Shown here in pieces: positions 6,228 through 21,338 of a DNA stretch of 21,355 bases (its first letter is position 1; the number at the start of each line of letters is the position of its first letter). This DNA comes from a virus. Position numbers and translations under genes: made by a program. The stretch is from the IMG/VR virus record IMGVR_UViG_3300037325_000289, positions 1-21,355 of that record; one strand, given 5' to 3'. A model generated the notes under the pieces. It was not told the origin of the DNA. It saw only the letters and a list, made by a program, of their open reading frames with translations, and searched no databases.

Positions 6228-6475
6228 CCGTCCCTCCGACACAGCATCCGCACCTCGGCGCGCATCTCGCGCACATCAGTCCGCACCTCGCCCAATGCAG
6301 CCCGATCCGCCGCGCGCAGGGCGTCGCGCCCCTCGATCTCGCGTTGCAGCATCTTGATCTGCTGCTCATTGGTCAGAACGCGGCGGATGACCCATCCGGT
6401 CGCCGAGACGGCCGCCACGACCAAAGACACGCCGATCGCCACCAATCCGGCTTCCAATCGTTCGCTAAAGCTCAT
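6224..6475 (-). CDS. Small membrane/coiled-coil protein of the lysis cassette, holin candidate
   Basis: The 83-residue product has one transmembrane segment at about 8-28 (AGLVAIGVSLVVAAVSATGW). A long charged helix (NEQQIKMLQREIEGRDALRA...) with heptad-like spacing follows, so it may oligomerise. It ends in an ATGA overlap with the endolysin gene and is the first gene of the lysis cassette, the usual place for a holin or an XhlA-like accessory protein. No signature proves holin activity. The start ATG has only a weak G-rich sequence upstream. Confidence 0.6.
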   Translation of the reverse strand: MSFSERLEAGLVAIGVSLVVAAVSATGWVIRRVLTNEQQIKMLQREIEGRDALRAADRAALGEVRTDVREMRAEVRMLCRRDG

Positions 6476-6528
6476 CAGGAAATCGCCCCATGTTTTGCAG
6501 TTTCAAAGGGATACTCGCGCGCCATTCT

Positions 6529-6945
6529 TCAAAACGCCTCTGGCGGATTTCCCGCGGCCAAGACCTTGCGAACCACGTCCTGAGCCGCCTCGACGCGTTC
6601 GGCGATTTCCGCCGAACTGAGCCCGGCGCGCGCAAGGGCGTGGATCACCCGATCCCGCCACGCCCGCGCGACATGGCTGCAATTGGACGGCTGCAGGATC
6701 TCGCCCCCGAACCACCTGCGCAGCTTCTCCGCGTCGTGCCAGCCCATGAGGCGCACCAGCGGGTGATCGACGGGCATCGTTTTGGGGATGTAGAGAACCC
6801 GGCGCCATGGGCGCGACCCGGAGCGCGGCAGGCTCCCGATCAGAAACAGCGTCCGCTCTCGGCCGATCACATCCGCGATCTCCTGCGCGCTTGGGTGGAG
6901 CGGCACAGGGCGCGATGGGCTGACGTGGATCATGCAGGCGCCCAT
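6529..6945 (-). CDS. Mor-like transcription activator family protein, probable late regulator
   Basis: The likely product is 138 residues from ATG 6943-6945; TTG or other starts slightly upstream cannot be excluded. The segment RRVLYIPKT (48-56) resembles the 'YIPK' strand of the Mu Mor/C activator family. The last 30 residues contain a helix-turn-helix pattern (AGLSSAEIAERVEAAQDVVR), where Mor/C also carries its DNA-binding helix. The gene is isolated by gaps on both sides: 175 bp with repeated palindromes before it and 53 bp after it. It immediately precedes the lysis and packaging genes, which fits an activator of late transcription. The family call is from motif and position and is moderate. 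Confidence 0.55.
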   Translation of the reverse strand: MGACMIHVSPSRPVPLHPSAQEIADVIGRERTLFLIGSLPRSGSRPWRRVLYIPKTMPVDHPLVRLMGWHDAEKLRRWFGGEILQPSNCSHVARAWRDRVIHALARAGLSSAEIAERVEAAQDVVRKVLAAGNPPEAF

Positions 6946-7002
6946 TCTCAGCAATGTCCCGACCTGCCTCCAGCTGAGCCCGGGTGGGCTGTTGCGGGGC
7001 TT

Positions 7003-7037
7003 TAGGGTTTTTTTTGTGGTGTGGTGTGGTGTCTTGT
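7003..7037. repeat. T8 tract and GTGGT short tandem repeat
   Basis: An eight-base T run (7008-7015) is followed by about three copies of GTGGT. On the leftward transcript this is a CACCA repeat followed by A8, just upstream of the Mor-like gene. It is low-complexity sequence, possibly an unstructured leader. Confidence 0.5.
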
Positions 7038-7065
7038 AGGTGCGCAACAGTTTTTGGAGGTGTTG

Positions 7066-7111
7066 CAAACTGTTGCGCGCAACAGTTTCAAACTGTTGCG
7101 CGCAACAGTTT
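7066..7111. repeat. Two tandem copies of a 23-bp unit containing a perfect 22-bp palindrome
   Basis: The unit CAAACTGTTGCGCGCAACAGT plus TT occupies 7066-7088 and is repeated without change at 7089-7111. Within each unit, 7067-7088 and 7090-7111 are perfect palindromes (half-site AAACTGTTGCG). A further half-site, GCGCAACAGTTT, is at 7042-7053. The 23-bp period puts the sites about two helical turns apart, as expected for cooperative protein binding. They lie between the DUF1376 gene and the Mor-like gene, so an operator, a replication element or a processing hairpin in the leftward transcript are all possible. Confidence 0.8.
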
Positions 7112-7120
7112 CGAGAGGGG

Positions 7121-7900
7121 TTATTCGCGCCGGCGCATGCCGGTCACCTCGCTGCCAGAGCCGACATCCAGCCGCTGCATGGCCTCGAGCACGTTGGGTG
7201 CGTTCCAGCGCACCCCGCGCCGGCGCAGGTCCGCGATCAGGGCGTCCACGAAGTCAGCGCGCCCGGTCAGCCCCGCATGGGCGCCGGCCTCGCGCATCAA
7301 GCGGCGCATGCGCGAGGCGAGGGCGCGCTCCGATGCGATCCGGCTCCGATCCGCTTGGCCATTGATGCGCTTCAACGCCTCGAGCGCGACCTGCGCGATG
7401 ACTGGATGGCCAAGCCTGATCTGCTCGATCTCGCCCGACTCCGTGCCGCGGCACAGGACCGGCGTCCATTTGCGCAGCGCTCCGCGGGCGCGAACATCGA
7501 GCCACCCGTCGATATCGCGCCCAAACCCTGCCAAGTGCGCCAGCTCGGCATCGTCGTCGGGCAGCGTTCCCGCCGGATCCTGCCGCATCGCCTCGGCCAA
7601 CAGCACGATCGAGACGAATGCGGCGTCGCGGTCCGTCGTGCTCACCAGGCGCGAGCCGAGGAAGCGATCGATGTAGAACGGGAACCAATCGCCGCGCATG
7701 CGCGCGCCGATCTGGATGGGATATTCGTCATCCTCCAGATCGAGAACATCGACATGCGCCGAGGGCTGCACCTGCGCCCCGACCAATGAGGGCGCCGCCG
7801 CTTCGGGCTCAGACGCCGCGCTGAGGCGCCGCCGGTGCGCGGGAATGTTTTCCAGGAATTTTGACCAGTGATCCGCTGGCCCGCCTGCGGGCCCGGTCAT
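7121..7900 (-). CDS. DUF1376 (YdaU-like) phage replication-region protein
   Basis: The 259-residue protein contains a DUF1376 pattern beginning near residue 70: [20 protein letters not shown], then a region rich in small hydrophobics, then [23 protein letters not shown]1376 proteins (YdaU) are common in lambdoid prophages in the place of a replication initiator or helicase loader. The N-terminal 60 residues are low complexity and the C-terminal 80 residues are basic helices ([20 protein letters not shown]), which could contact DNA or replication proteins. The start overlaps the GapR-like stop (ATGA). A direct role in replication is inferred from family context. Confidence 0.72.
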
Positions 7901-8169
7901 GACGACAGCATCCCGAGGGCCTGCAGGTAGAGGTCGAGCATGGCCTCTTCTTCAGAGCGATCCTCAGCGGACTTCTTGCGCAGGCTGATGACCTTTCGCA
8001 GAATTTTGGGGTCGAACCCGTTGCCTTTGGCCTCCGCGTAGACCTCCTTGATCTGCTCGGCGACCTCCTTTTTTTCCTCCTCTAGCCGCTCGATGCGCTC
8101 GATGATCGAGCGAAGCTGCGAGGAATGGATGGTGGTGCTCGAAACATCGTCGATCGGCTGGTCCAGCAT
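7897..8169 (-). CDS. GapR-like (DUF2312) DNA-binding protein
   Basis: The 90-residue product matches the DUF2312/GapR pattern closely: [20 protein letters not shown], then the signature [20 protein letters not shown], and an ending [14 protein letters not shown]. Chromosomal GapR of Caulobacter binds overtwisted AT-rich DNA ahead of replication and transcription forks and helps topoisomerases. A phage-borne copy beside replication genes could assist phage DNA replication or interfere with host GapR. ATG 8169 is preferred because GGAG lies eight bases upstream and it gives the usual family length; an ATG at 8196, overlapping the upstream stop, would add nine residues. Confidence 0.88.
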
Positions 8170-8192
8170 GATGGTCTCCATCGGTTGCATGA

Positions 8193-8414
8193 TCATTGGC
8201 GCCCGCGGCGCAGCGCAGCGCGCTCAGCGCGCAGGCGGGTATCGAGAAGCTCGGCGCGGCGCGCTTCGATCGCGGCGCATTCAGCAGCGGTGAAGGGCGC
8301 CTGCACGCCCATCACGGCATCAGCCACGAAGGCGCGCACATAGGCGTCGACCTCATCCACGGTCGCCATGCGCGACACCGCGGTGCGGCCAAGCCAATCG
8401 TCCAGCGGCCTCAT
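8193..8414 (-). CDS. Small phage protein of unknown function
   Basis: The 73-residue product starts at ATG 8412-8414 overlapping the methyltransferase stop (ATGA) and ends at the GapR-like gene. It is a soluble, helical, charged protein ([20 protein letters not shown], later [20 protein letters not shown]-like) with a strongly basic C-terminus. No family is recognised. Its place among the early replication genes suggests an accessory early protein. Confidence 0.65.
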
Positions 8415-10216: not shown

Positions 10217-10428
10217 GCCGGCTGAGCCTCCGCTTTGGCAGGGGCCGGCGGGTTGGCGTGCATGTAGGAGCGCACCTTCTCCACGGTGCGGGGAAGGCAT
10301 TCGCCGCCAGCCTCGAGCCGTTTGTAAAGGTGCCCATTTCCGACTGCACGGTGACAAACCGTTGACGGTTGTAGGCCTGCTGCATGGCAGTAGGCGTCGA
10401 TTTCTGATTTGATTGGGAGCGCTTTCAT
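10213..10428 (-). CDS. Small Cro-like helix-turn-helix repressor, first gene of leftward operon
   Basis: The 71-residue protein begins at ATG 10426-10428 (MKALPIKSEIDAYCHAAGLQ). Residues 6-55 fit an HTH with the recognition region PSTVCHRAVGNGHLYKRLEAGG and a following TVEKVRSYM helix, the form of small phage regulators divergent from the CI-type gene. It is divergent from the repressor gene, and its promoter contains the shared operator, the standard position of Cro. The C-terminus is proline/alanine-rich. It should be an early antagonist of the CI-type repressor; its binding sites may be the same operators. Confidence 0.68.
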   Translation of the reverse strand: MKALPIKSEIDAYCHAAGLQPSTVCHRAVGNGHLYKRLEAGGECLPRTVEKVRSYMHANPPAPAKAEAQPA

Positions 10429-10434
10429 GTGCGC

Positions 10435-10463
10435 AGAATTTGGCAAGTGCCAAACTAAGTCAA
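10435..10463 (-). promoter_or_regulatory. Leftward early promoter (predicted)
   Basis: On the minus strand, TTGACT (10463-10458) is separated by 17 bases from AATTCT (10440-10435), which lies just before the Cro-like start. The -35 is strong and the -10 weak. The palindromic operator at 10439-10454 fills most of the spacer, so bound repressor would exclude RNA polymerase. Confidence 0.6.
10439..10454. promoter_or_regulatory. Phage operator site O1
   Basis: TTTGGCAAGTGCCAAA is a perfect 7-bp inverted repeat around a 2-bp centre. It lies inside the leftward early promoter and matches the site at 11240-11255 closely. It is the best example of the operator consensus. Confidence 0.75.
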
Positions 10464-10477
10464 GGGCAAATGCAAAA
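10462..10477. promoter_or_regulatory. Phage operator site O2, imperfect
   Basis: AAGGGCAAATGCAAAA is an imperfect copy of the 16-bp operator, 23 bases from O1 and overlapping the -35 of the leftward promoter. The centre and one half-site are conserved. Cooperative binding with O1 is plausible from the spacing. Confidence 0.55.
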
Positions 10478-10506
10478 TTGGCACCACCCGTGGCCTGTTG
10501 TCATAT
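10478..10506 (+). promoter_or_regulatory. Repressor maintenance promoter (predicted)
   Basis: TTGGCA (10478-10483), a 17-base spacer and TCATAT (10501-10506) would start RNA about seven bases further on, almost exactly at the repressor ATG (10514). The -10 is a weak match, which is usual for an activated or autoregulated maintenance promoter. Confidence 0.4.
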
Positions 10507-10519
10507 GCCAACCATGGCA
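10504..10519. promoter_or_regulatory. Possible third operator overlapping the repressor start
   Basis: ATGCCAACCATGGCAT is an inverted repeat with the half-site TGCCA but in the opposite relative order to O1. It covers the predicted -10 and the start codon of the repressor gene. It could serve autoregulation like an O3 site, but the match is weak. Confidence 0.3.
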
Positions 10520-11149
10520 TTGAGCGAACTTTCTCAGCGGATCCTGGCGATCATGGAGGCGCGAGGCCTCAGCAAGCAGCAGGTCGCCGACCTTGCTGGC
10601 ATAAAATACCATGCGTTGAACCCGAACTTGACCCGCCACAATGCGACCCCGAATGCCATTATGGCGCAGCAGATAGCGGACGGTCTCGGTATCCCGATCG
10701 AGCATCTAACCAAGGGCGCTCCCTTGGACGCGCGCGCAACAATCGCCATCGCGGGAAGGGTCGGCGCCGGAGCGCGTGTGCCGCTGGTGGACGCCTACGA
10801 AAAGGGCGATGGCCCGCAGGTGCAATGCCCGCCAGGCCTCGGTCCTCACGGCATCGTGGCGGTGGAGGTGGAGGGCGACAGCATGGAGCCCGTTTATTCC
10901 GCCGGCGATCTCCTGTTCTACACCCGCCACGCCGTTGGCGTGCCTGCCGAGGCGCTGGGGCGGCGTTGCGTGTGCGAGGACGATGCTGGCAACGCGTGGG
11001 TCAAGCAGGTGAAGCCGGGGCGCGATCCGCGAGCCTTCGACCTCTACTCGATCAATGCCGCTGTCGCGCCGATGTATGGTGTCAGCCTCAGCTGGGCCGC
11101 CCCGGTTCGGCTGCACTGGCCTGCCGAGCTGGCTGTGCGGATCCGGTAA
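10514..11149 (+). CDS. CI-type phage repressor with S24/LexA-like autoprotease domain
   Basis: The 211-residue protein keeps the prophage silent and is expected to self-cleave after DNA damage. An N-terminal HTH covers about residues 3-60 (LSKQQVADLAGIKYHALNPN). A linker carries an Ala-Gly cleavage candidate, IAIAGRVG (A80-G81). The S24 domain has the nucleophile S123 in VEGDSMEP and the general-base lysine in AWVKQVK (164 or 167). ATG 10514 is chosen because the predicted -10 box leaves almost no leader; an ATG at 10505 (three codons longer) is possible. The gene is divergent from the Cro-like gene and ends at a strong terminator. Confidence 0.9.
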   Translation: MALSELSQRILAIMEARGLSKQQVADLAGIKYHALNPNLTRHNATPNAIMAQQIADGLGIPIEHLTKGAPLDARATIAIAGRVGAGARVPLVDAYEKGDGPQVQCPPGLGPHGIVAVEVEGDSMEPVYSAGDLLFYTRHAVGVPAEALGRRCVCEDDAGNAWVKQVKPGRDPRAFDLYSINAAVAPMYGVSLSWAAPVRLHWPAELAVRIR

Positions 11150-11239: not shown

Positions 11240-11255
11240 TTTGGCAAATGCCAAT
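11240..11255. promoter_or_regulatory. Phage operator site upstream of rightward promoter
   Basis: TTTGGCAAATGCCAAT has the same inverted 7-bp half-sites as O1 with one end mismatch. It lies just upstream of the -35 of the rightward promoter. Confidence 0.7.
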
Positions 11256-11262
11256 TAATTGA

Positions 11263-11291
11263 TTGACGTTTGGCGAATGCAAAATTAGCAT
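11263..11291 (+). promoter_or_regulatory. Rightward promoter (predicted)
   Basis: TTGACG (11263-11268) and TAGCAT (11286-11291) are separated by 17 bases. The spacer is filled by an operator copy. It should transcribe the genes from 11322 towards the integrase and be silent in the lysogen. Confidence 0.65.
11269..11284. promoter_or_regulatory. Phage operator site inside the rightward promoter
   Basis: TTTGGCGAATGCAAAA resembles O2 at 10462-10477 (identical GCAAAA half) and fills the -35/-10 spacer exactly. With the site at 11240 it forms a pair 29 bases apart. Confidence 0.6.
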
Positions 11292-14072: not shown

Positions 14073-14353
14073 CCACGCAAGCGCAGCCGTTCGGCTTTGA
14101 CCGCACCGATGGCGCCGCGCATCTCGGCCTGTCGGTGTCCTCCTTCGATCGGCTCGTGGCGTCAGGGATGCTCCCTGCTGGCCGCATGCTCGGCGGTGCG
14201 AAGCGTTGGGTGCGGACCGAGCTCGAGCGCGCATTGATCGAGGCGCCTGCGGATGTGCCGCCCGGCGCCGCGCGGCGCGCCGAGGCTGCGGACAAGTCGG
14301 CGGGCGCCAACCCGTGGGATCTTGCGCTCGATGCGTCCGGTCCGCGGGCGTGA
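14069..14353 (+). CDS. Excisionase/AlpA-like HTH protein
   Basis: The 94-residue protein starts at ATG 14069, overlapping the previous stop, with GGAG six bases ahead; an ATG at 14057 would add four residues. Residues 9-50 fit a MerR/AlpA-type winged HTH: FDRTDGAAHLGLSVSSFDRL, then SGMLPAGRMLGGAKRWVRTE. The C-terminus is acidic and alanine-rich. Its stop overlaps the integrase start (GTGA), the usual place of a recombination directionality factor. A role as excisionase or regulator of integrase is inferred from the HTH and position. Confidence 0.65.
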   Translation: MTTQAQPFGFDRTDGAAHLGLSVSSFDRLVASGMLPAGRMLGGAKRWVRTELERALIEAPADVPPGAARRAEAADKSAGANPWDLALDASGPRA

Positions 14354-15444
14354 AGTACCAAAAGCAGTTTCCGGGCGCCTCGCCCTATCGCGACCGGCAC
14401 GGATCGCGGCGCTGGCGCTATCGCGCCAAGGGCTTCTCGGCCGAGATCGGGACCGACTACGGATCCGCCGAGTTCATCCTTAGATATGAGGCTGCGGTGC
14501 AGGGTGAAAAGACGCGCGCCGGGGTAGGGGCCAAGCGCACGGCGCCGGGGTCGCTCGATGCGCTGTGCGTCTCCTACCTGCGCTCTCCCGGCTATCTGCG
14601 GCTCGGGACCAGTTCCCGCTCGCGCGAGGGGAACGAGATCAAGCGCATGCGTGCGGCCTATGGCACGAACCCGGTCGCGCCGATCGAGCGTCGGCATATC
14701 ATCGTGATGATGGGCGCCAGGCACGCGACGCCGGCCAGCGCGAACCACCTCCTGCGCATGTGGCGCAAGCTCCTGAAGCACGCGCTCGACATCGGCATGC
14801 GTGCGGACAACCCCGCGACGACGGTCGAGTTCTACTCAACCTCGCCCGATGGCTTCCACACCTGGACCGAGCCGGAGATCGCGCGGTTTTTCAAGGTGCA
14901 TGCGCCGGGAGGCGTCGCCCATGCTGCGGTGACGCTGATGCTGCACACCGGCGCCGCGCGCGTCGACGCCGTACGCCTTGGTTGGACCAACATCCGCGGG
15001 GCGCGGCTGGTCTATCGGCGCGAGAAGACCCGCACGAAGACCGACACCGTGGTCGACATCCCGCTGCATCCGGCGCTAGCGGCGGTGCTCGCCACGCTGC
15101 CGCACGATCGGTTGACCTTCCTCGCGATCACCGGCGGTGCCCAGCGCAGCGCGAACGGGCTCGGGAACCAGATGCGCAAATGGTGCGACGCCGCGGGTCT
15201 GCCGGAATGCACGGCGCACGGGCTGCGCAAGGCTATCGCGCGCCGCCTGGCAGAAGCCGGAGCCTCACCGCATGAGATCATGGCGGTGACCGGGCACAGC
15301 ACGTTGAAAGAGGTAGAGCGCTACGCCCGCGCCGCCGGGCGCGCTGGGATGGCGGATCGTGGGCTGGAGCGGCTACGTGAGGCTGATGAGAAGGTGACGG
15401 CGCTGCCGCGGCGCGTGATAGGGGGGGGGATTGCGAAAGAGTGA
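14350..15444 (+). CDS. int: Tyrosine recombinase integrase
   Basis: This 364-residue enzyme integrates and excises the phage genome. The start is GTG 14350-14352, overlapping the stop of the excisionase-like gene; longer readings upstream are shadow. The catalytic set is R204 in HTGAARVDAVRLG, a lysine around 226-230, H290-x-x-R293 in AHGLRKAIARR, H316 in TGHSTLKEVERYARAA and the nucleophile Y325. The N-terminal 170 residues hold the arm/core-binding domains. The C-terminus passes through a nine-G tract (15421-15429). The last gene of the rightward arm, it is followed by a hairpin terminator, and the host attachment site lies outside or at the tRNA. Confidence 0.95.
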   Translation: MKYQKQFPGASPYRDRHGSRRWRYRAKGFSAEIGTDYGSAEFILRYEAAVQGEKTRAGVGAKRTAPGSLDALCVSYLRSPGYLRLGTSSRSREGNEIKRMRAAYGTNPVAPIERRHIIVMMGARHATPASANHLLRMWRKLLKHALDIGMRADNPATTVEFYSTSPDGFHTWTEPEIARFFKVHAPGGVAHAAVTLMLHTGAARVDAVRLGWTNIRGARLVYRREKTRTKTDTVVDIPLHPALAAVLATLPHDRLTFLAITGGAQRSANGLGNQMRKWCDAAGLPECTAHGLRKAIARRLAEAGASPHEIMAVTGHSTLKEVERYARAAGRAGMADRGLERLREADEKVTALPRRVIGGGIAKE

Positions 15445-15683: not shown

Positions 15684-16160
15684 CTAGTCGCCGATTTTTG
15701 GAAGCAATTGAAATACATCTGACCCGTCAGTGACGGACACAAATAAGCCGCTTGGGGGTGGATTTGTTCCAATAATAACTAACAAAAATCCATTCATTTC
15801 GTGAGCAGATTTTGAAAACATCTCATTTATATTTTCAATGTCGCACGAGGAGGGTTTTGGAACAGGCTCCGGATGGGTATGCCAGTCACCGACGAAGTGG
15901 AGCCCTCGGGCGTATCGGGTCGTGATTTCTCGTTGCTCGGCTACTCTGTTTGGCCGATAGGCGAACCGCGCCCTCCGGTCACAGACTCGCGGCCCCGTCG
16001 CTTCCTCCACTATGATCTTCGGCAACTGAAGTCGGGCGAACAGTTGTCCGCCTGCTTCTTTCTCCCATAAACCGTTCTGGCGATATTGATTAAAGTGATC
16101 GAGGACCGCGCGTGTGAACACAAGCCGCTGTCCCGATGCGGCGATCGGATAAGCCATCAT
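15684..16160 (-). CDS. cap3: CBASS Cap3, JAMM-type deconjugating protease
   Basis: Cap3 cleaves CD-NTase-target conjugates made by Cap2, tuning the system. The product from ATG 16158-16160 (overlapping the Cap2 stop, ATGA) is 158 residues, the usual size; an upstream frame inside cap2 is shadow. The JAMM zinc motif is complete: E35 in EKEAGGQLF, H94-T-H96, then seven residues, S104 and D107 (SSCD). The order E...HxH-x7-SxxD matches the JAB/MPN+ family exactly. It is the last gene of the operon and converges with the integrase. Catalytic residues appear intact. Confidence 0.93.
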   Translation of the reverse strand: MMAYPIAASGQRLVFTRAVLDHFNQYRQNGLWEKEAGGQLFARLQLPKIIVEEATGPRVCDRRARFAYRPNRVAEQREITTRYARGLHFVGDWHTHPEPVPKPSSCDIENINEMFSKSAHEMNGFLLVIIGTNPPPSGLFVSVTDGSDVFQLLPKIGD

Positions 16161-17977
16161 ACAGCCGCGGCCTCTCCCTTTTTGGAACTCGCAGTCGGCC
16201 AAGCCCGCTCGAAAACGAACCCGCCCTCGTGCCGGAATGACGGGTCGCACTGCCAGTTTTCTGACCACGCACCGCCCGCCTGTTCCACACGCTTGCAAGG
16301 TCCCACCCAAACCCTGTGCATCGGGCCGTTGACTGCCCCTAGGAGTGCATCCAGAGCAAGTTCGCAGATAACGGCGTTCGCCATACTCAGTTCGACGGGA
16401 CCGTACGGTTGAAAGACTGCTCCACATCCGGGCTCTTGGCGGACAGTGTCTTCGGACCCCCATGTCGTCACCGTAAAGTGAGGCAGGCCAGTACCGTCGA
16501 AGCCGGACTGGATGCTGCCAGGCGGTCCGCCGACAAGGACGGCATGTCCGGCGCAGGCATGTGCCTCAAGCCACCCATACAGAACGGGTGGGGGTCTTTC
16601 CGCTGCGCGCTGCCATGCCTCAACCCTTCTATCAGCGACCCAGCTTGCAGTCATAGAGAGAGCAAGGTCGACATTGGCAGTCGTCCCGCCATGCTCGCGT
16701 AAGAATGTGTCGGCATCCGCGACGTGGGCCGTGACTTGGATATGAGGGAAGTCTCTGCGTAGCTTCTCGGCGAGAGCCTTTGCCTTGGCTTGGTCCACCG
16801 AAGGTGCGCCGAGGACGTGCCTCCCGATATTCGGCCACTTCAGGGTATCCGGATCGACCAGGATGAGATGGCCTATGCCGGCTTGTGCCAGTTGGAGCGC
16901 AATCGCGCCACCGACGGAGCCACAGCCAAAAACGGCAACGGTCTTCTGCCTGAGCAGCGCAGCGCGCGGGTCGTGACCTCGGCCATGGACCCATTCGGCG
17001 TCAGCTCTCTCAACAATTCGTCGACTCACCTTTGACCCTCCCAGATATCGCGCCTCCAGAACTACTGGAGGAATAGATCCCGAGCGAAAGCCCTTCGTCA
17101 GCGGGTCAGTGGCCCCATAAGTTGCCTTTTTCGGTGCAGGGACGATCGCGCCCGCGAGGGTTGGGCCGTGTCGTGTATCAAACCCGAGGGCGACGATGAG
17201 AGTCTCGGGGCGCTTGCTGATCAGATTAGAGAGAACTTCAACGCCGGTTTTATCAGCTCCATCAACCATTTCACGCAGTTCACTTCCGGTGTTAGGATAC
17301 GCTGATGGCTGCGGTGGCGACTTCACCCAGACCAGCGCTGCGTCTCTCGCCCTGAAACCGCTTGGTTTATTCCCGTGGCGGTTGGCCAGCCATTCGTAAA
17401 GCTCAGCCTCTGTCTCGGCCAATAGACATATTGCCTGACCCCGCCAGAATTTTATCATCCGTGACGGTGGCTCAGCGCGAAGTAGGCTGACGATGCTTGC
17501 TCCATTTCGGTCGGCTCCATAACTCCAGTAAGAGTTAAATTCGTCCTGAAAGCGCTCAACCAGCTCGCCTTTGCTTACCTGCAAAACAAGTTGAACAGCC
17601 TCATCCAGCAGGCAAGCAGCAACCCCAGCCGGATCGTCGGGGTCAATCTCAAAGCTGTCAGATGACAAGCAGAGGACGCCGTCTTTTTCGATATGAGGCC
17701 AAGTTAAGAAAGGTGGGCGGTCAACTAACGCGATCCGTACCACCTTCCAAGGAAGCCCCTGTGGGAGTAAAATATCGAAGCGGCGCACCCTATTTTCTAA
17801 CTGGATGGATAGACGCCAACCAGCTACGGCGTTGTGGCCTTTGTAGGCTTGAAGCTCTGCAGCTGAGAGGGGGTGAAGCGGCGCAGCGCCGAGACACTCA
17901 AGCCATGTGGTGACTGCGGCTCGGGCCGCGTCAAACACTGGCCCAAGCTCAAGGGATGTTTTTGTGTCGTTAGGCAT
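16157..17977 (-). CDS. cap2: CBASS Cap2, E2-E1 fusion that conjugates the CD-NTase
   Basis: Cap2 activates and transfers the CD-NTase C-terminus to a target protein, priming CBASS signalling. From ATG 17975-17977 (overlapping the CD-NTase stop, with GGTGG eight bases upstream) the product is 606 residues. The E2-like N-domain has its catalytic cysteine C103 in EKDGVLCLSS (97-106). The E1/ThiF-like domain begins about residue 344, with the nucleotide loop GCGSVGG (351-357) and VDPDTLKWPNIGRH behind it. The catalytic E1 cysteine is C518 in QEPGCGAVFQP. The stop overlaps the cap3 start. Both active sites are present, so this looks functional. Confidence 0.93.
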   Translation of the reverse strand: MPNDTKTSLELGPVFDAARAAVTTWLECLGAAPLHPLSAAELQAYKGHNAVAGWRLSIQLENRVRRFDILLPQGLPWKVVRIALVDRPPFLTWPHIEKDGVLCLSSDSFEIDPDDPAGVAACLLDEAVQLVLQVSKGELVERFQDEFNSYWSYGADRNGASIVSLLRAEPPSRMIKFWRGQAICLLAETEAELYEWLANRHGNKPSGFRARDAALVWVKSPPQPSAYPNTGSELREMVDGADKTGVEVLSNLISKRPETLIVALGFDTRHGPTLAGAIVPAPKKATYGATDPLTKGFRSGSIPPVVLEARYLGGSKVSRRIVERADAEWVHGRGHDPRAALLRQKTVAVFGCGSVGGAIALQLAQAGIGHLILVDPDTLKWPNIGRHVLGAPSVDQAKAKALAEKLRRDFPHIQVTAHVADADTFLREHGGTTANVDLALSMTASWVADRRVEAWQRAAERPPPVLYGWLEAHACAGHAVLVGGPPGSIQSGFDGTGLPHFTVTTWGSEDTVRQEPGCGAVFQPYGPVELSMANAVICELALDALLGAVNGPMHRVWVGPCKRVEQAGGAWSENWQCDPSFRHEGGFVFERAWPTASSKKGEAAAV

Positions 17978-19043
17978 AGCGGCCGCCACCCTCTTTTCGA
18001 ACGGCGCTCTTTGCGGGTGCCGCGGCGCTGGAAATCAAACCAGCGGTCAAAACGGCAGGACTGGCAATTGCGGACTTCTGCTCCGAGTCAGCGCTTGCGT
18101 TTCCCCGCTCGCTGAAGAAATTCGTGTTGAAAACCTTATCCCAGCACTTAAGCGCCTTCTCTCGCGTGCAATCGGACTCGAGCGTCGGGGCAAGCTGATC
18201 GATTGCATCCGTCAGTTTATTGCAGAGAAATCGTGCTTTCGCATCATCGCTCCCGTTCGTGATTGTCTCGTTGGGCGTTACTGGGTGCTTGATGATCAAG
18301 CTGCCAGCTAGGCGTTTTCGGATGGCATTCATGGTGTCGTAGAGAGCTTGATCTTCCCTATTGATGCCGGCGCAAAACACTTCAACGGCGAGCTTCGTGA
18401 TTCCGAAACCACTCAGAGTCTGCCCGCTCCAACTCGTGCGGCTCCGGGAAAATTTCTTGATGTGCCGTATAACTCGGCGCAGTTGCCGTCCGTTTGTAAT
18501 GTCGGAGCTCTGTTTCTTGTTTTGTGCTTCAAACCAGTCCGTGACATCGCGCGCGTCGGATTTTTTCCATTCACTGCTGGCAAGTTCGTAATGATGGGTT
18601 TCGTTATCGAAAATGTCCTTCATCGTCACCCGGCGATATACGGGCATGTCAACGTGGTATCCAGCGGCATAGTAAATGCGAACACAATTCTTAATTATCT
18701 CAGGAGCTGTATTGAATCTTCCATCATCCACGGCATCTCGCACCATTTTTCGTGCTTGAAGCGCTGTCATTTCGGCCCCACGGTCGCCAATGAGTGATGT
18801 CTTTTCGAAGTAGATGCCATCATCGATATCATAGTCATTCTCAGGGTGCTGAACCATGGTTTTCATGGCATAGCTCCCTTGGCTCTTGCATTCAATTGGT
18901 GCTGGATTTCCGTTTTTTATGAGTCCATTATTCATGCGTACACGGTTGGCATCACGATGCGCGCGCATCGTGTTTCGATATGGCTGAGGTAGCGTCACTT
19001 TTTCATTGTGGTGAGCAATAATATCGTTGGCACAGTCATGCAT
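17970..19043 (-). CDS. dncV: CBASS CD-NTase, DncV-like cyclic dinucleotide synthase
   Basis: This 357-residue nucleotidyltransferase should make the cyclic dinucleotide that activates CapV (in the DncV group, 3',3'-cGAMP; product not readable here). The nucleotide-binding G56-S57 (SQGSYAMKT) and catalytic D72 and D74 in YDIDDG are intact. A third aspartate fits D132 in GYHVDMPVY. The C-terminal half is helical. The last residues, EGGGRYA, form the flexible tail that Cap2 would attach to targets. I choose ATG 19043 because AAAGG lies nine bases upstream and the gene then overlaps the CapV stop by eight bases; ATG 19052 adds three residues. The gene symbol follows the DncV-like (clade A-type) signature and is a family-level assignment. 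Confidence 0.88.
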   Translation of the reverse strand: MHDCANDIIAHHNEKVTLPQPYRNTMRAHRDANRVRMNNGLIKNGNPAPIECKSQGSYAMKTMVQHPENDYDIDDGIYFEKTSLIGDRGAEMTALQARKMVRDAVDDGRFNTAPEIIKNCVRIYYAAGYHVDMPVYRRVTMKDIFDNETHHYELASSEWKKSDARDVTDWFEAQNKKQSSDITNGRQLRRVIRHIKKFSRSRTSWSGQTLSGFGITKLAVEVFCAGINREDQALYDTMNAIRKRLAGSLIIKHPVTPNETITNGSDDAKARFLCNKLTDAIDQLAPTLESDCTREKALKCWDKVFNTNFFSERGNASADSEQKSAIASPAVLTAGLISSAAAPAKSAVRKEGGGRYA

Positions 19044-20226
19044 GGTCGGCATCCTTTCCAGCAGGCTCTGACGGAGACTGTCCCTGGGCAAGCGGGGCCT
19101 GACGCTTGAAAAGGGGAATGGTGAGCGGTGGCATCGCGTTAAATAGATCGCAGATCATCGCCGCCTCTGGGTCAGTATCTTGATAATTGCATTTGCTGTT
19201 CGTCATATCGGCATCCGTCTGCGCCTGTCTGATTAGCGCCTCGACAGCTTCCGTGCGTGTGTCATCTAGCCCTAAATACGGGATCAAGGCAGCAGGCACA
19301 TTTTCTGATGGAAATCGAAGCACCTTACAACTTCGTCCGGTGCTTATTTTAATCTGACTGGCCAACTTTTTTGCCATGTGATCATAGGCGAACTGCTGGG
19401 CGTCGACCGCTAGCGACGCGGCCTCACCGCCGAACTTCCATCCGGCGAGCCCGCGATGCACATCTGAGCGGTTTATCTGTTCCCCTGCCGGAAGTGGGCA
19501 GGTGCCGAGACTGAATACCTCGATAGGCTGTTCAGGCGCTGCGACATCCAGTGCCTCGATAAGGCCGATCATCACAGGATTGTTGGCCCATAAACCACCA
19601 TCGACAAATACGTTATGCGTCGGAGCTCCACCCGGATGATCTATGCTAGCCATGGAGCGAAATACCGGTGCCGCAGAAGTCGCTAAGCAAACTTCAACCA
19701 AGCGATAATTGTCATCGCGATGGTTTGTCGTCTCAAGGTGTGGCGTCTTAAATACCCAAGCGCGATGCTGGCTCATTTCTACCGCCGTGATGGCAAGCGC
19801 TATCCCTCGCTGCTTGTAAACATCGGCAATGGTTGTTTCACCGAGCACGTCCACAAGAGCTTTCCGGAGCGCTTCGTCCCCATGTGCCAACGCCTTTGGC
19901 CTCTTTATGAGGTCCGCAATGAGCCTCGGTATCATCCTTGTCAGTGGTCCATCAGGCAGTCGGCGGCTAAAAATCTTGGGGCCGTGTGTGCGGTAGAGTT
20001 CAGCTATGCTTTTGAGCGGAACGCCTTTCGCGAGCCCGCAGGCGATGATGCCCCCCGTGCTCGTCCCAACGATCAAGTCAAAGCCTGCCCCAATGTCCAA
20101 CGCCTCTTCTCCGCGACGCTGCGCGAAGGCGCTCGCCACCTGATTAAGGTAAGTCGCGGTGTACGTGCCGCGCATGCCGCCTCCGTCGAGACTGAGTACG
20201 CGGTAGGGGAGAAGCTCTGAAACCAT
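19036..20226 (-). CDS. capV: CBASS effector CapV, patatin-like phospholipase
   Basis: CapV degrades inner-membrane phospholipids once it binds the cyclic dinucleotide, killing the infected cell before phage release. The 396-residue protein has all patatin motifs: the oxyanion loop DGGGMRG (14-20), the nucleophile S56 in GTSTG (54-58), and catalytic D209 in VDGG (208-211) followed by LWANNP. An ATSAAP segment at 182-187 is also typical. The extra C-terminal region (about 250-396) should bind the messenger and support oligomerisation. It is the first gene of the operon; its ATG has AAGGA about 13 bases upstream, a loose spacing. The promoter is in the upstream AT-rich gap. Confidence 0.93.
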   Translation of the reverse strand: MVSELLPYRVLSLDGGGMRGTYTATYLNQVASAFAQRRGEEALDIGAGFDLIVGTSTGGIIACGLAKGVPLKSIAELYRTHGPKIFSRRLPDGPLTRMIPRLIADLIKRPKALAHGDEALRKALVDVLGETTIADVYKQRGIALAITAVEMSQHRAWVFKTPHLETTNHRDDNYRLVEVCLATSAAPVFRSMASIDHPGGAPTHNVFVDGGLWANNPVMIGLIEALDVAAPEQPIEVFSLGTCPLPAGEQINRSDVHRGLAGWKFGGEAASLAVDAQQFAYDHMAKKLASQIKISTGRSCKVLRFPSENVPAALIPYLGLDDTRTEAVEALIRQAQTDADMTNSKCNYQDTDPEAAMICDLFNAMPPLTIPLFKRQAPLAQGQSPSEPAGKDADHA

Positions 20227-21254: not shown

Positions 21255-21338
21255 TGGTGGGCGGGGTGGGAATCGAACCCACTATGCGTCACCGCGGCGG
21301 AGTTACAGTCCGCTGCTCTACCTTAGAGCATCCCGCCC
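21255..21338 (-). tRNA. tRNA-Tyr (anticodon GTA), CCA encoded
   Basis: The minus strand folds as a complete tRNA. The acceptor stem is GGGCGGG/CCCGCCC (7 bp), the D-arm GCTC-TAAGGTA-GAGC, and the anticodon arm GCGGA-CTGTAAC-TCCGC with GTA. The 14-base variable arm has a GCG/CGC stem, and the T-arm is GTGGG-TTCGATT-CCCAC. It ends with A and an encoded CCA. The long variable arm agrees with bacterial tRNA-Tyr. Its 3' end points at the CBASS island, the usual orientation for an integration target. Confidence 0.95.

Follow-up and report, generated by a model that had tools for sequence, protein, structure and literature searches.

A short array of inverted repeats directly 3′ of the rep gene (7121-7900) in this viral DNA is very likely the replication origin of the phage, in which the repeats would act as iterons bound by the adjacent replication protein (Rep); we infer binding and firing from comparison of related loci. 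The window, by which we mean the whole stretch of 21,355 bp that was analyzed, carries the following features. Read along the minus strand, they run from the Rep stop (7121) through two palindromes, a degenerate half-site, CTGTTGCGCA, CCTACAAGACA and the T-free tract CCACACCACACCACAAAAAAAA to a Mor-like gene.

7121..7900, minus strand: DUF1376/YdaU-like replication protein (Rep; PHROG profile match), proposed origin-binding initiator
7090..7111, no strand: palindrome 1, two half-sites CTGTTGCGC
7067..7088, no strand: palindrome 2, same letters as palindrome 1, 23-bp period
7060..7066, plus strand: degenerate half-site, offset −16 from the last half-site
7041..7050, minus strand: last half-site CTGTTGCGCA, abutting the box; the separate half-site of the initial annotation (7042-7053)
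7030..7040, minus strand: box CCTACAAGACA, family pattern CCTAYARGACA
7008..7029, minus strand: T-free tract CCACACCACACCAC plus A8, proposed unwinding tract
6529..6933, minus strand: Mor-like late activator gene (phrog_836 late transcriptional activator, E = 1.4e-18), start uncertain; outside the origin

The initial annotation had pointed to two identical palindromic units and a half-site, and these are real: the perfect 22-bp palindrome AAACTGTTGCGCGCAACAGTTT occurs twice in identical form (7067-7088 and 7090-7111, period 23), and the half-site AAACTGTTGCGC occupies positions 7042-7053 of the minus strand. The same element also includes a degenerate half-site (7060-7066) and, at 7008-7040, the box and tract. 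Among the spacer-free perfect palindromes of at least 14 bp in the record, only the two units exceed 20 bp; the others are one of 20 bp at 18953 and one of 14 bp at 14265. The 20-bp palindrome (CACGATGCGCGCGCATCGTG, 18953-18972) sits within a CD-NTase gene. No further copy of the 12-nt half-site, at up to one mismatch, was found anywhere in the 21,355-bp record, which is a fragment. The 3′ gap of rep was more repetitive than all 100 of its 100 dinucleotide shuffles. A TTG-started ORF (6529-7068, minus strand) overlaps the palindrome by two bases; because the similarity of the relative L010 to this ORF starts at residue 40, the element most likely lies between genes.

The window Rep matched the replication protein profile phrog_22470 (E = 1.2e-9), as did 12 of the 14 members of the family alignment. 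Its match to Pfam DUF1376, a domain of unknown function, reached 13.2 bits, below the cutoff of 30.1; six of the 14 alignment members matched this domain at E ≤ 0.01 (best 1.6e-4), and a plasmid-borne Rep relative is annotated as "YdaU family protein". Comparison of the Rep alignment profile with Rac YdaU gave no similarity. The structure model of Rep, of modest confidence (mean pLDDT 66), has a weak winged-helix-like core at residues 72-165, with weak VIA-align matches (Z ≤ 5.6) to DnaD, RctB and many unrelated winged helices. Foldseek with this model returned no match at E 0.001, and a PDB sequence search found no convincing relative, with one match at E 0.65. No helicase or loader was found among the subset of window ORFs that was scanned. 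Directly upstream of rep, a GapR homologue (7897-8196 in the window) is also present in L007, L009 (where it is cut at the contig end) and L010; it was unmatched in 18 other loci searched, many of them short.

Rep relatives were drawn from virus contigs, from genome contigs (seven loci) and from 394 genomes of the family to which the L024 host, a Phaeobacter, belongs. Five of the seven genome-contig loci come from named Rhodobacteraceae genera, and the remaining two from one Rhodobacteraceae MAG and one MAG labelled Alteromonadaceae. A Rep match occurred in 28 of the 394 family genomes compared with four of 385 genomes searched class-wide, so the Rep group is narrow. Apart from the near-identical L007 and L009, the relatives' Reps share 24 to 72% identity with the window Rep. 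L007 and L009 carry the unit together with Rep, and L010 has one palindrome and Rep. The more distant relatives, mostly Rhodobacteraceae, usually have the same layout in the same place with another half-site word; by eye, the words behind rep include CTGAAAT, CTGTAAT, GTGTGAC, CTGTTGCGC, CTGTTCC, CTGTCC, TTCCG and others. Across the compared loci, the place and layout of the array are thus seen to recur behind rep, and the half-site word is seen to change in step with the Rep protein. Conservation of the units in related phages, the check proposed in the initial annotation, has to be judged with care, as the letters of the unit change between relatives and its place and layout are kept. A search of virus contigs for the unit itself returned members of the lineage and, as the sole other contig with an exact 18-mer, L023. 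By eye, the 500 bp around that match contain a stretch resembling a tRNA as well as a different palindrome of greater length, and this contig was set aside.

To compare arrays, the last half-site was defined as the 10 nt preceding the box, and copies of its first 7 nt were counted. At least two further array copies were present in 17 of 19 box-bearing loci (five in the window), the exceptions being L042 with no further copy and L045 with one. In the window the copies lie at offsets −58(+), −49(−), −35(+), −26(−) and −16(−); L028, L029 and L032 have −64/−53/−43/−32 (+) and −25/−15 (−) in common, and L034 lacks one of these. The half-site-to-box spacing of 10 is not universal, as L089 and L112 look like 11, and L010, with a box that differs in its final base, escapes the box pattern. 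From the box onward, a raw count gives 1 to 10 T residues in 45 nt across loci and two in the window.

The excess of repeats behind rep was evaluated by comparing the first 110 nt after the gene with 100 dinucleotide shuffles, with 150 stretches located 3′ of other genes of these loci as controls. No more than one of 100 shuffles was as repetitive in 30 of 42 rep gaps and in one of 150 controls; at the level of five of 100 shuffles, the figures were 33 of 42 and four of 150. Nine of the 42 gaps (L008, L047, L052, L057, L059, L062, L063, L065 and L067) were unremarkable at the latter level, and several of them hold repeats by eye. These 42 were taken from 54 loci, with the omission of L007 and L009 (near-identical to the window), L030 (truncated rep), L072 and L073 (distant), L076-L080 (other hosts), and L068 and L081 (near-duplicates of L044). 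No 3′ repeat excess was seen in the omitted L072, L073 and L030, or behind the five Pseudomonas, Burkholderia and Synechococcus phage genes.

The same gaps are enriched in DnaA boxes. In a count of 47 of the 54 loci (without L007, L009 and L076-L080), the perfect box TTATCCACA was found in 14 gaps (14 in 16,255 bp), always as TGTGGATAA and at +106 to +208 after the rep stop, compared with none in the 228,042 bp that these loci contain beyond the gaps; five further gaps contained a one-mismatch box. The position of this box 106-208 nt past the rep stop in many relatives suggests that DnaA helps there. The window lineage is without it: the perfect box was absent in the window, L007, L009 and L010, and the window array has none even at one mismatch. 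In the Paracoccus phage vB_PbeS_Pben1, an array, the box CCTACAGGACA and the DnaA box TGTGGATAAG lie behind p32. Pben1 belongs to a set of induced, active phages, and p32 is its predicted replication initiation protein (PMC6536676). The word "iteron" is absent from the main text of that report, and the passages available do not discuss the origin (PMC6536676). At the level of titles, and with subscription journals mostly outside coverage, no description of these rep-linked arrays was found in the literature.

To determine which protein the repeats follow, repeat similarity was compared with protein identity. It correlated with Rep identity (Mantel r = 0.674, p = 0.0002, n = 43), and this held when the downstream protein was kept constant (partial 0.683, p = 0.0002, n = 34), compared with 0.141 (p = 0.006) for the downstream protein with Rep kept constant. 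The automatic downstream ORF was misframed or misplaced at some loci, and the partial tests cover just the 34 with a homologous downstream protein; loci without the box were left uncut at the tract, so that tract letters may add similarity in the Mantel tests. The similarity of the repeats follows Rep much more closely than it follows the next gene. Outside the lineage, the Reps closest to that of the window are those of L069 (45%), which has CTGTTGCGC, and L046 (44%), which has mainly CTGTTTCGC and one CTGTTGCGC. The downstream gene of both belongs to the family of other relatives, a family unmatched in the window, L007, L009 and L010, where Mor takes the downstream place.

A search with the box alone, blind to protein, recovered 34 virus-contig stretches, 29 of which have the end of a Rep gene of this family immediately upstream. 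Five of these 29 contigs were known from the protein searches, and 16 Reps are left after removal of those at least 95% alike. The search added the half-site words CTGTTAT and CTGTGAT. Of the five matches without Rep, L086 is truncated, with 261 nt of upstream DNA in which an array is visible; the other four (L099, L100, L109 and L110), where no array was seen, look like chance. When the box pattern was combined with the window's own half-site, two lineage contigs and no others matched.

The suggestion in the initial annotation of an origin-type repeat beside the DUF1376 protein is therefore well supported, since the layout follows the Rep family even though the downstream gene differs. In the model that we favor, the half-sites (those of the two palindromes, the degenerate site and the last site abutting the box) would be iterons to which the DUF1376-like Rep binds. 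Once assembled on the array, Rep would open the neighboring CCTACAAGACA box and the T-free C/A tract, and the opened tract could then let the host helicase load, so that initiation would take place there.

Known origins offer partial parallels. The lambda origin combines a cluster of short initiator-binding repeats with an adjacent opening tract, and its origin makes up a single module with the initiator gene (PMC7466680). The element described here resembles the lambda type (ori-lambda, O protein) in the coupling of a repeat cluster to the phage's own replication gene. However, the lambda iterons lie in the middle of the initiator gene, whereas here the array begins past the rep stop; the window Rep gave no match to the Pfam replication-O (lambda O) family up to E 10, although the two may be distantly related; the side tract of the window is T-free and C/A-rich; and here half-sites occur in both orientations and DnaA boxes in 14 of 47 relatives. 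Among seven DUF1376-like rep stretches from other hosts, internal repeats were significant in two, phi297 (a gene) and Solano (a matched, unannotated stretch), where they lie inside rep and not behind it; in phi297 they are followed, as in the window, by a T-free tract (GACAGGG). The other five include ydaU of the E. coli Rac prophage, which has TGTTCAAACA-like repeats within the gene that were not significant (7 of 30 shuffles reach the level). The known origin of Rac is oriJ (PMC3945230). Origins of iteron plasmids and second chromosomes, of the RepA and RctB types, are similar in having repeats about one helical turn apart, as in many of the relatives, and DnaA boxes, as in some; the weak matches of the Rep model to winged-helix domains of RctB and DnaD point the same way. 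They differ in that the present setting is a phage, that Rep has no sequence relative among solved structures and that the window has no DnaA box.

The main competing explanation is that the array is a Rep-bound operator, a control site for the downstream gene, with the origin elsewhere. The array does lie between rep and the next gene, and covariation of Rep and repeats fits any site that Rep binds. We consider this reading unlikely, because the array is kept across a replacement of the downstream gene, which is Mor in the window lineage and belongs to another family in relatives, and because an operator needs neither DnaA boxes nor a box with a T-poor tract. A simple consensus scan, which is weak evidence, also found no sigma-70-like promoter within 6400-8300.

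Two other readings in the initial annotation have fared worse. Mor-type proteins bind dyads, and the Mor-like gene begins just downstream of the array, so the repeats might be binding sites of this late activator. Yet TGTTGCGC was found within 450 bp upstream of none of ten Mor relatives (L011-L020), which gave no Rep match in the DNA examined, and L069 and L046 have the half-sites but no Mor match within 3.6 kb. The unit also has no second copy elsewhere in the record, a fragment, and we regard Mor binding as very improbable. An RNA hairpin or terminator that divides early from late transcription is equally disfavored. The window fold on the minus strand is very stable (z = −9.1), and z was −2.7 or lower in eight of 12 arrays tested, but inverted DNA repeats fold anyway. 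The z scores, from single-base shuffles, were unremarkable in the other four arrays (L010, −1.3; L044, −1.6; L046, −0.2; L075, −1.0), a scan for terminator-like sites (a stem followed by a T-run) found none, and the Rfam matches were to microRNA models, all far below gathering scores. An operator of the CI-like repressor is scarcely credible: the prophage does carry an S24-type repressor, but the dyads by its gene have a different word (TTTGGCAA..TGCCAAA-like, by eye), and matches to the half-site near that gene have three mismatches and are no more frequent than chance.

Returning to the origin model, one pair of close relatives suggests that the array may move as one cassette with the end of rep. 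The Reps of L044 and L102 are 92% identical, and 15 of their 17 amino-acid differences fall in the final 67 residues; the last half-sites are CTGTAAT and CTGTGAT, respectively, and the L102 array also contains CTGTTA. In 60-nt windows, DNA identity between the two is 60% in the first window, mostly 88-98% in rep, 76-86% at the end of rep, 40-60% in the array and 98-100% beyond. The partial correlation with the repeats was 0.348 for the C-terminal part of Rep vs 0.133. However, the pair L096 and L101, which shares six of the L044/L102 changes (V151M, K157R, K158R, D180E, E184Q and L207V), has 28 differences spread over the entire protein, and L044 and L096 have similar words yet also differ in 28 places; both comparisons speak against a cassette. 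L101 and L102 may have a segment in common by descent. We give about even chances to the proposal that the 3′ third of rep makes up, with the array, an exchangeable specificity cassette, in which the C-terminal domain and the iteron word would be swapped and the N-terminal domain, box, tract and DnaA box would stay. If so, a single chassis would carry many origin types that are blind to each other, and the DNA-reading code would lie in the C-terminal domain of Rep.

If the element is an origin, one gene and the approximately 100 bp behind it would predict the origin in many alphaproteobacterial prophages, and an origin-binding role for DUF1376 would be indicated. About eight iteron words (by eye) in one layout would then be a natural data set for the evolution of initiator specificity. 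It would also bear on the means by which phages resident in the same host might keep from firing one another's origins, and these loci could be a source of orthogonal replicons.

Several other features of the record and its relatives were observed. Contig 3300037293_000454 (L006/L009) has rep, the array, Mor and lysis genes in common with the window; by eye, its small terminase subunit is a different one and its large subunit has diverged, a mosaic break. In L014, L017, L018 and L020, other short repeats (GTGACCA, TACCCT and TGGTCCC words, by eye) precede the Mor-like gene and are perhaps origins of other replication modules. The TTTGGCAA..TGCCAAA-like dyads at 10439-10455 and 11241-11285 flank the S24-type repressor gene (10409-11149) and, by eye, look like its operators. 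A four-gene CBASS-like defence operon (15684-20226), encoding JAB, E1-E2, CD-NTase and patatin-type phospholipase proteins, is placed between the integrase gene (14206-15444) and tRNA-Tyr (21255-21338).
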